This document shows positions 10,808 to 15,155 of a stretch of 42,964 bases of DNA, piece by piece. Made by a program: the position numbers and the translations under genes. Under the pieces are notes generated by a model, which was given only the letters and a program-made list of their open reading frames with translations, made no database searches and was not told the origin of the DNA. How positions within the stretch are numbered: position 1 is the first letter of the stretch; each line of letters opens with the position of its first letter. The stretch covers positions 1 through 42,964 of the forward strand of contig JAIOIH010000035.1 of NCBI GenBank assembly GCA_019912395.1, in the 5' to 3' direction. This DNA comes from Flavobacteriales bacterium (GTDB lineage: Bacteria > Bacteroidota > Bacteroidia > Flavobacteriales_F > PHOS-HE28).

Positions 10808-12448
10808 ATGGCCGAAAAGATCGACATCGAAGCCTCCAAGAACGAGGACCATAACAAGCTCGCTATCTCCGAGCTTCACAAGCGTCTCCACAAGATCCAC
10901 GAAGGCGGTGGTGAAAAGCGTATCGCCAAGCTGCACAAGCAGGGCAAGATGACCGCCCGCGAGCGCATCGATGCCCTGCTGGACCCCAAGAGCCCGCGCA
11001 TCGAGATCGGGGCCTTCGCTGCGGACGGCATGTACGAAGAATATGGCGGTGCGCCCAGCGCCGGCGTGATGGTGGTGATCGGCTACGTGAGCAAGCGCCA
11101 GTGCATGGTGGTGGCCAACGACGCCACCGTGAAGGCCGGCGCCTGGTTCCCCATGACCGCCAAGAAGAACCTCCGCGCACAGGAGATCGCCATCGAGAAC
11201 CGCCTGCCCATCATCTACCTCGTGGACAGTGCCGGCGTCTTCCTCCCCATGCAGGACGAGATCTTCCCCGACAAGGAGCACTTCGGAAGGATCTTTCGCA
11301 ACAACGCCGTGATGAGCTCCATGGGCATCACGCAGATCGCCGCCATCATGGGCAGTTGCGTGGCCGGTGGCGCCTACCTGCCCATCATGAGCGATGAAGC
11401 CCTCATCGTGGAGAAGACCGGCAGCATTTTCCTTGCCGGGAGCTACCTCGTAAAAGCCGCCATCGGTGAGGACATTGACAACGAGACCCTCGGCGGCGCG
11501 ACCACCCACAGCGAGATCAGCGGTGTGGTGGACTACAAATGCAAGGATGATGCGGAATGCCTGAAGACCATCCGCGACATCATGGACAAGCTCGGCAAGC
11601 CGAAGGACGCAGGCTTCAGTCGCGAGAAAGCGAAGGCACCGAAGGCGGACGAGAAGGAACTCTACGGCATCCTCCCGGTGGATCGCACCAAGCCCTACGA
11701 CATGCGCGACGTGATCGCCCGCTTGGTGGACAACAGCGAATTCACGGAGTACAAGAAGGGCTACGGCCAGAGCATCATCACCGCCTACGCCCGCATCGAC
11801 GGCTGGGCCGTGGGCATCGTGGCCAACCAGCGCAAAGTGGTGAAGAGCAAGAAGGGCGAGATGCAGTTCGGCGGCGTGATCTACAGCGACAGCGCCGACA
11901 AGGCCACGCGCTTCATCGCCAACTGCAACCAGAAGAACATTCCGCTGGTCTTCCTACAGGACGTCACCGGCTTCATGGTGGGCAGCCGGAGCGAGCAGGG
12001 CGGCATCATCAAGGACGGCGCGAAAATGGTGAACGCCGTGGCCAACAGCGTGGTGCCGAAGTTCACCATCATCATCGGCAACAGCTACGGCGCCGGCAAC
12101 TACGCCATGTGCGGCAAGGCCTACGACCCGCGCCTCATCGTGGGCTGGCCCAGCGCCCAAGTGGCCGTGATGGGCGGCGACCAGGCCAGCAAGGTGATGC
12201 TCCAGATCGAGGTGAGCGCCCTGAAAGGCCGCGGCGAAGTGATCACACCGGAGAACGAAAAGGAACTCCTGGACAAGATCCGCAAGAAGTACGAGGACAC
12301 TACCTCGCCGTATTATGCGGCCTCACGGCTGTGGCTGGATGCGGTGATCGATCCGTTGGAAACGCGGACTTGGGTGAGCATGGGGATCGAGGCTGCAGCG
12401 CAGGCGCCTGCTACGCGGGAATTCAATATGGGAGTGTTGCAGACGTGA
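10808..12448 (+). CDS. Acyl-CoA carboxylase, carboxyltransferase (beta) subunit
   Basis: 546 residues, full length for the family. It transfers CO2 from carboxybiotin to an acyl-CoA (propionyl-, methylcrotonyl- or related) in cytoplasmic branched-chain amino acid or propionate metabolism. N-terminal crotonase-like half: 'GKMTARERIDALLD', 'VVANDATVKAGAWFPMTAKK', 'DSAGVFLPMQDEIFPDKEHFGRIF', 'MGSCVAGGAYLPIMSDE', 'LGGATTHSEISGVVDY'. C-terminal half: 'GWAVGIVANQR', 'IPLVFLQDVTGFMVG', 'IIIGNSYGAGNYAMCGKAYDPR', 'AQVAVMGGDQA'. The 'LPMQDEIFPDKEHFGRIF' segment is closest to methylcrotonyl-CoA carboxylase beta chains, but substrate cannot be fixed from sequence. No biotin-carboxylase partner lies nearby. 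The final 117 bp recur at 12763-12879, and four TCTGATC repeats precede the start. Confidence 0.9.
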   Translation: MAEKIDIEASKNEDHNKLAISELHKRLHKIHEGGGEKRIAKLHKQGKMTARERIDALLDPKSPRIEIGAFAADGMYEEYGGAPSAGVMVVIGYVSKRQCMVVANDATVKAGAWFPMTAKKNLRAQEIAIENRLPIIYLVDSAGVFLPMQDEIFPDKEHFGRIFRNNAVMSSMGITQIAAIMGSCVAGGAYLPIMSDEALIVEKTGSIFLAGSYLVKAAIGEDIDNETLGGATTHSEISGVVDYKCKDDAECLKTIRDIMDKLGKPKDAGFSREKAKAPKADEKELYGILPVDRTKPYDMRDVIARLVDNSEFTEYKKGYGQSIITAYARIDGWAVGIVANQRKVVKSKKGEMQFGGVIYSDSADKATRFIANCNQKNIPLVFLQDVTGFMVGSRSEQGGIIKDGAKMVNAVANSVVPKFTIIIGNSYGAGNYAMCGKAYDPRLIVGWPSAQVAVMGGDQASKVMLQIEVSALKGRGEVITPENEKELLDKIRKKYEDTTSPYYAASRLWLDAVIDPLETRTWVSMGIEAAAQAPATREFNMGVLQT

Positions 12449-12466: not shown

Positions 12467-12679
12467 ATGCGCAGACGCGAAGTTTTACTCGACAAAAAGA
12501 AAGTGCTCCGATCCGTCAGCCTTATGTCTGATCGCTTCAGCTTGGACGAATTCGTGGACCGAATGATCATTCTCGAGAAGATCGAACGTGGACTCGCTGA
12601 TATTGAAGCTGGCCGAACTTTCACGTTGGAAGAAGTGAAGAAGCGGTTCGACCACATTCTGACGAAGGGAACCAAATGA
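12467..12679 (+). CDS. Small antitoxin-like protein
   Basis: 70 residues from ATG 12467, or 51 from ATG 12524 ('MSDRFSLDEFVDRM'); the shorter form is more natural for the family. The core 'EFVDRMIILEKIERGLADIEAGRTFTLEEVKKRFDHILTK' has the 'I..GL.D...GR..T.EEV..R' pattern of RelB/ParD-type antitoxins in Bacteroidota. Its stop overlaps a downstream ATG (ATGA at 12676), as in antitoxin-toxin operons, but the next frame does not look like a toxin; after ~30 residues it runs into a carboxylase-tail copy. So the toxin is missing or replaced. I infer an orphan antitoxin brought in with the insertion at the carboxylase 3' end. Confidence 0.55.
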   Translation: MRRREVLLDKKKVLRSVSLMSDRFSLDEFVDRMIILEKIERGLADIEAGRTFTLEEVKKRFDHILTKGTK

Positions 12680-12879
12680 GGAGTGCATCATCGATCCGCA
12701 GCAAGTGCGAGAAAACCATCAGCACGTACCACCCGGCAGCTGGTCCCGCATTTGATGCGGGATGGCTGGGTGCGGTGATCGATCCGCTGGAAACACGGAC
12801 GTGGATCTCGACGGGGATAGAGGCGGCGGCGCAGGCGCCTGCTACAGGGGAATTCAATATGGGGGTTTTGCAGACGTGA
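12676..12879 (+). pseudogene. Chimeric ORF ending in a second copy of the carboxylase C-terminus
   Basis: The frame begins at an ATG overlapping the antitoxin-like stop. The first ~29 codons match nothing I recognise and include a CCCGCAT/ATGCGGG hairpin. From 12763 to the stop it is a copy of the carboxylase 3' end (12332-12448): 39 codons, 17 base differences (85% identity), encoding 'WLGAVIDPLETRTWISTGIE' and ending 'EFNMGVLQT'. Only 4 of 38 residues differ and most base changes are at third positions, so both copies evolved under protein-level constraint before becoming neighbours. This looks like a recombination or insertion scar and not a functional gene. Confidence 0.7.
12744..12762. 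repeat. Short perfect hairpin TCCCGCAT-TTG-ATGCGGGA
   Basis: Eight perfect base pairs around a 3-nt loop. It ends exactly where the carboxylase-tail copy begins (12763), so it may mark the recombination junction. Confidence 0.6.
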
Positions 12880-12929: not shown

Positions 12930-12956
12930 GGGCGGACCGTTTCACCGGGCGGACCG
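12930..12956. repeat. Direct repeat GGGCGGACCG
   Basis: Two identical 10-mers at 12930-12939 and 12947-12956 (17-nt period) next to the left flanking palindrome of the RAYT element. Confidence 0.6.
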
Positions 12957-12974
12957 ATCATGATCGGTCCCTAC
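12951..12974 (-). repeat. REP-like palindrome with GTAG, left of the RAYT gene
   Basis: GGACCGATCATGATCGGTCC (12951-12970) is a perfect 20-bp palindrome. On the minus strand it is immediately preceded by GTAG (plus-strand CTAC at 12971-12974), the tetranucleotide that marks the 5' foot of REP hairpins recognised by RAYT enzymes. It abuts the 3' end of the transposase gene (stop at 12971). Confidence 0.75.
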
Positions 12975-13711
12975 CCGTTGAAACGATCGCCTTTCCAATT
13001 TTTCGGGTTGTCGCGGATGTAATCCGCGATGCGTTGGTGTTCCGCGTCATCGCGGATGATGCGGTCCCAATAATTGTGTTGCCATAACCGTGTGCCGCGG
13101 GGCAACAAACCATCACGGTACGCGATGCGGGTAACGGCGGATTTATACGACGCGACGATCTGGCCCAACGCGCCACGCGGGATGCCCGGTGGTTTCCGCG
13201 GATCCTGTAGGGGCGCGCCATGACGCGCCCGTGTGCGTTGGTCATGTGCGTCGGCCGTGTCGGGATCACCGCCGGGCGTTCCGGTAACGGGATCATCGGG
13301 CGTTGTTTCGGATGTATTGTCCGCGATGCCATGCGCATCCCGCGCACCAATGCCGGGCGCGTCCGACGCGTTCGTATCGGGCGCGTCATGACGCGCCCCT
13401 ACGTCCAACGCACCGCCCCGCACATCCCCACGCGCGTCCACCAACCGTTCCCGTATCACAACGATCCCATGCACATGGTTGGGCATCACAACAAATTCCC
13501 CGACATCCACATGCGGCATGTGTTCAGGTATCGCATCCCAACATTGTTGGGCCAATTCACCGATGGGTGATCGATGCATCACCGCATCCGCGATGCGCCC
13601 GAACCAATGGCGGCGGTCATCGGTGCAGATCGTTACATAATACGCACCCTGTTGGGCGTAATCATATCCCCGCATCCGGATCGTGCGGCGCTTCGGTAAT
13701 TCACGGGCCAT
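12971..13711 (-). CDS. REP-associated tyrosine transposase (RAYT), with REPs inside the ORF
   Basis: 246 residues, Y1/IS200-like HUH fold. 'GYDYAQQGAYYVTICTDDRRHWFG' is the N-terminal strand set; 'MPNHVHG' holds the metal-binding His pair (79 and 81); 'QIVASYKSAVTRI' is the following helix; 'WQHNYWDRIIRDDAEHQRIADYIRDNPKNW' holds the catalytic Tyr (214). RAYTs cut and rejoin single-stranded DNA at REP hairpins; cellular role unclear. Between His81 and Tyr214 is a low-complexity Asp/Ala/Gly/Thr/Pro-rich linker (~residues 92-175). Its borders 'GARHDAP' (105-111) and 'RARHGAP' (161-167) are translations of two GTAG-flanked palindromes. Palindromes also flank the gene. A -7-like GATATTCG ends 3 nt before the ATG. 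Confidence 0.85.
   Translation of the reverse strand: MARELPKRRTIRMRGYDYAQQGAYYVTICTDDRRHWFGRIADAVMHRSPIGELAQQCWDAIPEHMPHVDVGEFVVMPNHVHGIVVIRERLVDARGDVRGGALDVGARHDAPDTNASDAPGIGARDAHGIADNTSETTPDDPVTGTPGGDPDTADAHDQRTRARHGAPLQDPRKPPGIPRGALGQIVASYKSAVTRIAYRDGLLPRGTRLWQHNYWDRIIRDDAEHQRIADYIRDNPKNWKGDRFNG
13207..13230 (+). repeat. REP-like GTAG-palindrome inside the RAYT gene (copy 1)
   Basis: GTAG at 13207-13210 is followed directly by GGGCGCGCCATGACGCGCCC (13211-13230), a 20-bp palindrome with one mismatched pair. On the minus strand it encodes residues ~161-167 of the transposase. Confidence 0.75.
13379..13402 (-). repeat. REP-like GTAG-palindrome inside the RAYT gene (copy 2, inverted)
   Basis: GGGCGCGTCATGACGCGCCC (13379-13398) is a perfect palindrome; its GTAG is on the minus strand (CTAC at 13399-13402). 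Over 25 nt it differs from copy 1 by one base and is inverted relative to it, so the two form a REP pair spanning 13207-13402. Confidence 0.75.
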
Positions 13712-13745
13712 GCACGAATATCGGCATCACCAGTTGAACGGTTTC

Positions 13746-13765
13746 GGGCCGATCATGATCGGCCC
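13746..13765. repeat. Palindrome on the far side of the RAYT gene
   Basis: GGGCCGATCATGATCGGCCC is a perfect 20-bp palindrome sharing the 14-bp core CCGATCATGATCGG with the left flank. It lacks GTAG (GTGT on the minus strand). The methyltransferase stop codon at 13753 lies inside it. Confidence 0.8.
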
Positions 13766-14295
13766 ACACCCCGCCCAACCCAAACCGAATACAACCGCGC
13801 TCCCCCGAACGCAGAAGTCCGCTCTCCAAGCCGCTGCACCGTTCCAAATCCGCGATCAGCGCATAGTTGCGACAACGCAACAAACGATAGCGGATGCGGC
13901 ACCCATGGGTTCGGGCTGCCCGTATCGTACTCCACGAGCAGGAGTGCCCCCGTGGGTTTCAACGATGTGCTTATGCGCTGTATGAATGCAGCCTGGTCGC
14001 GCACGAAATGCAAGGCGTTCGCGAGGAGGATGCCGTCCAGGTCCTTCATCGCCAGTGGCTCGGTAACGAAATCGCCCACGTGTTTCGTGATCTGCACGTT
14101 TCCGTGCAGATCAGGCACTTGCTTCACGGCCGTGGCATTGTGATCCATGGCGGCGATGGTGCTTCCCGTCGGCAGCAATTCGGCAAGCGCCCGCGTGAAT
14201 GTGCCCGTACCGCAGCCGAGGTCCGCCCAATGCTGCGGCCGGCCGATCGACATTGGAGCATTGCGCAACAAGTCTACCGCATCGCGATGATCCAT
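13753..14295 (-). CDS. SAM-dependent class I methyltransferase
   Basis: 180 residues from the ATG at 14295 ('MDHRDAVDLLRNAP'); the frame opens farther upstream, but this start has TACACTTG, a -7-like element, 4 nt before it. Motif I is 'WADLGCGTGTFTRALAELLPTGSTIAAMDHN', the glycine-rich SAM loop followed by the acidic residue ending strand 2. 'DGILLANALHFVRDQAAFIQRISTSLKPTGALLLVEYD' covers motifs II-III of small-molecule methyltransferases (Methyltransf_11/25 type). Substrate unknown. The C-terminus is odd: the last residues 'GRGVGRS' and the TGA stop lie in or next to the palindrome at 13746-13765, so the native tail may have been cut by the neighbouring RAYT element. Confidence 0.8.
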   Translation of the reverse strand: MDHRDAVDLLRNAPMSIGRPQHWADLGCGTGTFTRALAELLPTGSTIAAMDHNATAVKQVPDLHGNVQITKHVGDFVTEPLAMKDLDGILLANALHFVRDQAAFIQRISTSLKPTGALLLVEYDTGSPNPWVPHPLSFVALSQLCADRGFGTVQRLGERTSAFGGARLYSVWVGRGVGRS

Positions 14296-14750: not shown

Positions 14751-15155
14751 TCAGTGAAAGACGAGTACGGCGAGGACGAGGGTACTGAGGCTTGTGAGCA
14801 GCATGATCTTGCCCAGCACTTCCGAACGTGCGGCCCAGCGTTCGCCCTTGCCGACAGCAAAAGTGAGCAGGGTGATCAATACGATCATGACGACCACAAG
14901 AACGAGTTTGGCAATGAGCAACGGAAGGTCCGGCAACACGTTCCAATAGGGGCCCATCAAGAACAGGCCCGAGACCACCAACAAAGCCAACCCGATGGCA
15001 CCCATCCGGGTCAAGATGGACGTGCGCTGCCGGAACGTCCTTGCATCCTCGCCCTGCAGGTCGGCATTGCCGACACCTAGGAAGATGAACGCGAATCCGG
15101 TGCCCAAGCCCATCACCAGGCCCAGGAAATGAAGGATGAGCATAGCGTCATGCAT
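14751..15155 (-). CDS. Small integral membrane protein, DUF2269/CopD-like
   Basis: 134 residues starting 'MHDAMLILHFLGLVMGLGTGF' at 15155; longer in-frame starts add a hydrophilic stretch that does not fit. Four membrane helices are visible: ~5-28, ~48-70 ('AIGLALLVVSGLFLMG'), ~78-101 ('LLIAKLVLVVVMIVLITLLTFAV') and ~112-132 ('IMLLTSLSTLVLAVLVF'). The N-terminal His in a 'LHFLG' helix and the overall layout recall the DUF2269/CopD-like four-helix family. Function unknown. It is divergent from the TerC gene with a 197-bp shared upstream region, so co-regulation is possible. Confidence 0.65.
   Translation of the reverse strand: MHDAMLILHFLGLVMGLGTGFAFIFLGVGNADLQGEDARTFRQRTSILTRMGAIGLALLVVSGLFLMGPYWNVLPDLPLLIAKLVLVVVMIVLITLLTFAVGKGERWAARSEVLGKIMLLTSLSTLVLAVLVFH

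Follow-up and report, generated by a model that had tools for sequence, protein, structure and literature searches.

In-frame inverted REP elements in the linker of a RAYT gene from a Flavobacteriales bacterium, compared across Bacteroidia

A gene for a REP-associated tyrosine transposase (RAYT) from a Flavobacteriales bacterium carries two REP elements, inverted relative to each other, within its own reading frame. We analysed the stretch of DNA around this gene, here called the window (42,964 nt; GenBank assembly GCA_019912395.1, contig JAIOIH010000035.1, positions 1–42,964, forward strand), and compared the gene with homologues from its genus and from Bacteroidia as a whole. As judged from sequence comparisons, the gene is probably a RAYT resembling those of subclass 2.4 with a resident inverted REP pair, in which REPs would have entered a tolerant loop recurrently and their hairpins would then have been kept up. 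Insertion into the tolerant loop is the best supported step of this explanation. That RAYT genes can hold in-frame REPs has been described before (Quentin et al., 2018; PMC6006769), and the window gene is an ordinary member of that kind which adds useful comparative detail.

The window gene encodes a RAYT in which a linker, predicted to be disordered, separates the two halves of the core (Table 1). The earlier note on this DNA, made from its letters alone, had also called it a RAYT. The protein matches NCBIfam REP_Tyr_transpos with E = 8.6e-14 and a score of 51.7 bits, which is below the model cutoff of 80, and its match to Pfam Y1_Tnp is marginal (0.016, below cutoff). All 75 rows of an alignment of homologues match REP_Tyr_transpos at E ≤ 0.001, and a profile made from these rows found one PDB sequence, 4er8 (TnpArep; E = 1.1e-7). 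An AlphaFold model from 6 sequences was poor (pLDDT 41.7) and was set aside in favour of a model from 75 sequences. The best Foldseek matches of the latter were 2xm3 (ISDra2 transposase, E 4.1e-5) and 4er8 (E 6.2e-5), and only the fold is taken from these alignments, most of which have a large rmsd (2.5 to 12 Å in the first 30 rows). Model confidence is high in residues 21–80 and 181–240 (pLDDT 95–98) and low (43–67) in the blocks of 10 residues that make up 91–180. The identification and the split core follow from the NCBIfam and PDB matches, from this confidence pattern and from the invariance of H79, H81, Y231 and N235. By its family, Y231 is the candidate catalytic tyrosine.

Table 1. Positions in the window of the RAYT gene, its motifs and linker, and the four hairpins in or beside it.
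Feature	Position	Strand	Evidence or detail
RAYT (REP-associated tyrosine transposase, TnpA-Y1 class) CDS, 246 aa	12971..13711	-	NCBIfam, profile versus PDB, AlphaFold/Foldseek
HuH motif NHVH, residues 78-81	13469..13480	-	P77, H79, H81 invariant (75-row alignment)
Candidate catalytic tyrosine Y231 in YIRDNP	13019..13021	-	Y231, N235 invariant (75 rows)
Low-complexity linker, about residues 90-178, HuH strand to next helix	13178..13444	-	Predicted disordered
Internal REP 1, GTAG foot and 20-nt palindrome, encodes VGARHDAP	13379..13402	-	Palindrome 13379-13398
Internal REP 2, inverted versus REP 1; gene strand encodes ARHGAPL	13207..13230	+	Palindrome 13211-13230, foot GTAG
Downstream flanking REP, other stem type, GTAG foot	12951..12974	-	Palindrome 12951-12970
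Hairpin flanking the gene upstream, stem GGGCCGATCATGATCGGCCC, foot GTGT or GTGG	13746..13769	-	Palindrome 13746-13765

The gene has two features of the RAYT class, namely a Y1 HuH transposase fold with the HuH motif and a single candidate catalytic Tyr, and flanking GT[AG]G-footed REPs (GTAG downstream, GTGT/GTGG upstream). A cognate REP family at high genome copy, which is usual for RAYTs but not strictly required, was not found here. Two further RAYTs are present in the same genome. One (contig C31) has a GTCGACCC-type hairpin within its linker, and the other (C73) has no internal hairpin and GTAA-footed hairpins on both sides; there is also a weak RAYT match on C87.

Four 20-nt palindromes centred on CATG lie in or beside the window RAYT, at the places given for them in the earlier note (12951, 13211, 13379 and 13746). 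That note had seen a GTAG foot on three of them and had described two of these as lying inside the frame, inverted, with one base different in 25. All of this was borne out: the feet are on the minus strand at 12951 and 13379 and on the plus strand at 13211, and the fourth palindrome has the foot GTGT, or GTGG if its stem is taken 2 nt shorter. The peptides encoded there, given then as GARHDAP and RARHGAP, are read in the 246-aa frame as VGARHDAP and ARHGAPL (Table 1). A distance of 188 bp between the pair holds as the outer span of both palindromes (13211–13398) but not as the gap between the footed units, which is 148 bp. The internal hairpins have GCG at the stem centre versus CGA in the flanking type, CCGATCATGATCGG. 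The RAYT stop codon is the TAG of the downstream REP's GTAG foot. When the window was searched with the pattern GTAGGGNCNNNNCATGNNNNGNCC at up to 2 mismatches, five matches were obtained, the four hairpins and a non-palindromic one at 14946; shuffled windows gave a mean of 0.48 and reached five in 0/100 shuffles. Each of the four hairpins folds as single-stranded DNA with a z of −3.3 to −5.4 versus shuffles, and in the predicted RNA fold REP 1 and REP 2 form a long-range stem of 25 pairs (z −4.6).

Inverted REP pairs linked to RAYTs are known as BIMEs or REPINs. The window pair is like these in consisting of two inverted REPs that have their GTAG feet outward and are able to pair mutually, but unlike them it is translated, has a spacer of 148 bp and is not dispersed. 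Many dispersed copies of an inverted pair, as in BIMEs and REPINs, were not found; the pair of this stem type occurs once, in the RAYT gene.

According to the main text of Quentin et al. (2018), in-frame REPs between HuH and Y are unique to TnpAY1 subclass 2.4, which a table in that paper equates with Bertels group 4 and lists with the motifs NH[IFV]H, WQ and YIxNNP. In the features given there, the window RAYT is like subclass 2.4 in having NHVH, WQ and Y-x-x-x-NP, in a variable insertion between the core halves with in-frame REPs between HuH and Y, in its flanking GT[AG]G REPs and in its Bacteroidota host. It is unlike subclass 2.4 as tabulated and described there in reading YIRDNP, with D where the table gives N, in the small number of REP copies in its genome and in an internal stem type that differs from the flanking one. 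For comparison, GTAG REPs that lie within genes, and feet whose TAG serves as stop codon, are known from passages of Di Nocera et al. (2013; PMC3733652), where a legend also mentions REPs that overlap RAYT gene ends. The elements in the window share with those a short palindrome with a GTAG foot, the use of TAG as a stop and a place within open frames, whereas the hosts of internal REPs in those passages are repair and other genes and the host here is a RAYT. The same paper describes Rickettsia palindromic elements, which are CGTC-ended and inserted in frame in protein genes. These too are palindromic repeats translated in frame, but its passages do not describe them inside a transposase belonging to the repeat.

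To place the window gene among its homologues, we used two samples. The genus sample had a RAYT match at E ≤ 0.001 in 33 of 45 genomes, with 15 further stretches taken by place; searches at the family and order levels gave the same 45 genomes. The class sample had a match at E ≤ 1e-12 in 108 of 395 genomes, with 84 stretches (24, and 60 by place) taken among the matches listed. The 164 loci yielded 104 unique candidate genes; in 36 of the loci, some of them truncated genes or loci taken for their hairpins, the motif rule found no candidate. We counted the 76 genes that have an FK-like helix motif, one of which (L112) was left out of the alignment, giving 75 rows. The other 28 candidates were left out for lacking that motif, and an internal hairpin is present in at least 13 of these (L081, L089, L094, L097, L102, L103, L113, L124, L132, L154, L155, L160 and L161).

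The linkers of the 76 genes hold 66 footed hairpins, spread over 47 genes and 13 of 22 clusters (60% core identity), versus 4.94 expected from 50 synonymous codon shuffles, which is an excess of about 13-fold. The N-part of the same genes has 1 footed hairpin (1.58 expected) and the C-part 2 (0.74 expected), and 105 neighbouring ORFs covering 97.5 kb have 14 (10.4 expected). With a stricter foot rule the linkers retain 47 hairpins in 32 genes versus 3.75 expected, and the N- and C-parts have 1 each versus 0.5 and 0.35. The hairpin signal is confined to the linker, save for a second site in L132 and L142. By the inclusive rule 29 of the 76 genes have no linker hairpin; at least two of these, L045 and L107, show one by looser rules. 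An alignment of RAYT homologues had been proposed in the earlier note, which counted a lack of copies in relatives, together with a lack of linker palindromes in every homologue, as evidence against its reading; copies do occur in relatives, and linker palindromes in homologues.

The feet of the internal hairpins are read in more than one codon phase. GTAG is read as GTA|G in 13 clusters, as GT|AG in 3 and in the stop phase in none. The inverted form, CTAC, is seen in two phases (10 and 5 clusters) and not in the third, and CCAC, which is inverted GTGG, is seen in all three. Both GTAG phases are present within one cluster, so base substitutions alone do not link the two. Internal hairpins occur in both orientations and at linker positions from HuH+8 to HuH+100, and L084 has three direct copies plus one inverted. 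A GTAG hairpin in the N-terminal half of L132 and L142, at HuH−41/−43, marks a second insertion site. Because of the two phases, both orientations, the varied positions, the second site and the multiple copies, REP insertion into RAYT genes looks, in these sequences, recurrent and in frame. The phase of inverted internal REPs that is not seen, xxC|TAC, contains no stop, and the CCAC variant has it in 3 clusters. Its absence could be accounted for by double-foot elements of a length that makes both feet fall in the same phase.

Among close homologues in the genus the internal REPs have two stem types. Type A (GCGCGTCATGACGCGC) is found in the window gene, L022, L023, L024 and L027, and type B, which is the flanking type of the window, in L025, L026, L028, L029 and L030 and as a single copy in L077 and L078. 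In a tree of the core residues of 20 own-genus genes, one branch parts the A and B sets with support 100/99. In 8 of the 9 genes that hold two copies, the internal REPs agree in stem type; the exception is L022, in which the first copy differs. Where the amino acid is the same, hairpin codons are identical in 176/179 cases between B genes and in 50/58 between A genes, versus fractions of 0.74 and 0.67 outside the hairpins; between A and B genes they are identical in 101/174 cases versus 0.64 outside. From type A to type B the residues R and A become D and R, and base pairing is kept. A covariation test on 12 distinct rows of 21 found 95% of cells paired and a score of 0.400 versus 0.136 in shuffled and at most 0.119 in slid controls. 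In these rows 5 pairs changed on both sides versus 3.1 in shuffles, much of this two-sided change going back to one A/B switch that several genes have inherited; further pair types (7 versus 6.5 in shuffles) showed no difference. On these data, the palindromes seem to remain able to fold and to change in concert while the surrounding protein linker drifts fast. The shared stem type of the internal REPs, the change of type across one branch and the compensated changes are possibly new; the main-text passages of PMC6006769 do not describe a stem-type switch or compensated changes.

The closest comparison is with an orthologous locus (L022/L051) in G023, the Flavobacteriales MAG ACE_BAC32, which aligns to the window locus over one stretch of 2781 bp at 94.1% identity. 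DNA identity between the two genes is 97.0% in the N-core and 93.6% in the C-core, and 12947–12970, at the downstream REP, is identical at 24/24 positions. The stretch between the internal hairpins is 70.9% identical, with 24 inserted nt in the sister gene. Hairpin 1 is identical at 17/24 positions, with 7 changes in its 20-nt stem, of which 6 make up three compensated pairs (P 0.0008–0.006 under random placement, from simulations with transition shares of 1/3 to 0.8 and with a test chosen after seeing the data). Hairpin 2 has one unpaired base in the window and is a perfect palindrome in L022. The changed hairpin 1 of L022 was found at one place only in G023 and at none in the 6 other genomes tested. 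BLAST homology to L051 breaks off at 13729, a little upstream of the RAYT start and next to the hairpin on that side. Because of this, there may be a rearrangement end next to a REP near that position.

We also asked how the internal hairpins compare with those flanking the same gene. In the 11 genes that have both, the mean similarity of internal to own flanking hairpin is 0.647 versus 0.436 when permuted, and 0/20,000 permutations were as high, a figure that is too optimistic since two clusters supply three and two of the genes. Four of these genes score no higher than 0.55. A full match of the internal with the flanking hairpin is seen in L042, L064 and L115, and in L063 a match over its 19-nt core; in the window gene, L022 and L025 the two differ. 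L064 is unlike its tree neighbours L063 and L042 (support 100/98) in the internal and the flanking hairpin alike.

The earlier note had proposed a count of such hairpins in the genome. At up to 2 mismatches, type A occurs in the own genome at 2 places, both in the window RAYT, and type B at 3, including the two on the flanks of that gene; a relaxed pattern with 1 mismatch gave 15 matches. The own assembly has no donor for the window's internal REPs within 2 mismatches, and the assemblies used in the donor searches were mostly in many contigs, from which a donor could be missing. The view in that note that a REP pair had inserted in frame into its own transposase therefore has to be divided. 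In-frame hairpins in the linker stand and are recurrent, but an origin from the gene's own REPs is not supported for the window gene, where the internal stems are unlike the flanking ones and have no further copy within 2 mismatches in the assembly; it does fit L042, L063, L064 and L115. A substrate reservoir, self-recognition and self-limitation, which that note also put forward, would be hypothetical roles. Across the 45 genomes of the genus, type A was found in 23 and type B in 29, and reversed control patterns were found in none for both types. By hand count, 23/31 of the two-mismatch places of type A and 42/45 of those of type B are perfect palindromes. Most of the dispersed copies inspected have other feet (GTAC, GTTG), and some may be orthologous sites or genic. 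REP-like families are present at low copy, and the own genome is not REP-rich.

In the explanation that we favour, REPs would enter RAYT genes repeatedly, perhaps because the enzyme encounters single strands of REP and of target close to the gene that encodes it, and insertions would survive only where they are in frame and within the disordered loop. Hairpin-templated (template-switch) correction may then preserve the folding and the likeness of the copies, as may recombination, either copy with copy or with other REPs. Selection could also take part if the protein still binds the internal REPs. Against this explanation, the window gene has unlike internal and flanking types, no donor REP was seen for the window or for L022, and 29 of the 76 genes have no linker hairpin by the inclusive rule.

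It is possible, although we consider it rather doubtful, that the internal REPs are kept because they are functional. The RAYT would then bind its own gene or mRNA and limit expression, or the pair would be a substrate, as an in-gene REPIN. Consistent with this, the sister gene has three compensated pairs among 7 stem changes in a linker that is there only 71% identical, same-type hairpins exceed their surroundings in codon identity, the two copies are predicted to pair mutually, and some relatives have matching internal and flanking hairpins. By contrast, the 29 genes with no linker hairpin by the inclusive rule and the differing internal and flanking types in the window, L022 and L025 argue against a function, the two unlike copies in L022 imply that a long paired stem is not required, and the sister-gene test was picked after seeing the data.

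Upkeep could instead be purely mutational, with template switching at quasi-palindromes copying mutations from arm to arm and selection unneeded, but we are inclined to doubt this too. The compensated changes in hairpin 1 are as it would predict, as is hairpin 2 with its unpaired base in the window and its perfect palindrome in L022, and in E. coli mutations are reported to arise by template switching at quasi-palindromes (PMC7202029). By itself this process does not account for feet of the GT type, for the confinement of the hairpins to the linker or for the relatives in which the internal hairpin matches the flanking one.

A more far-reaching proposal is that the linker is an actively maintained, translated REPIN. 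The protein would read REPs in its own gene or mRNA, the pair would track its hairpin preference and stem-type switches would record changes of specificity; on the present comparisons this seems unlikely. RAYTs are thought to spread REPs. Genes with REPs in their own linker may record how RAYT and REP change together. Here two sister clades are unlike in both of their internal copies, and L064 differs from L063 and L042 in both its internal and its flanking hairpin. This raises a question for the bench, whether the enzyme prefers the hairpin carried inside its own gene.

Selection on the encoded peptide (VGARHDAPL-like), with the palindrome as a by-product, is very improbable. VGA- or VET-led peptides do recur in many RAYT linkers, but the residues change between types A and B while pairing stays, codon identity is higher inside same-type hairpins than outside, and the peptides lie in predicted disorder and are different in the GT|AG phase (for instance RRDAINRVST). 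Chance palindromes from codon bias or low-complexity GC-rich coding, with coincidental GTAG feet, can be dismissed, since even though the linker is GC-rich and repetitive and synonymous shuffles yield a few footed hairpins, the excess over those shuffles, the covariation with its slid controls and the empty reversed control patterns in all 45 genomes rule this out.

Two other observations were made along the way. The 3′ end of a carboxyltransferase gene (Pfam Carboxyl_trans) is duplicated downstream in the window (12332–12448 and 12763–12879), with a 70-aa ORF that has no Pfam match (12467–12679) between the copies. In the genus there is also a dispersed hairpin with fixed ends, GTACGGG/CCCCAAC, and variable, mostly self-complementary stems, with feet GTAC/GTTG and not GTAG (examples are L185, L188, L196, L206–L209 and L212–L214). 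It occurs at 59 places in 32 of the 45 genomes versus 18 for the reversed control (hand sum), and 11 of the 16 contexts read have an ATG no more than about 15 nt after the hairpin, at putative gene starts.
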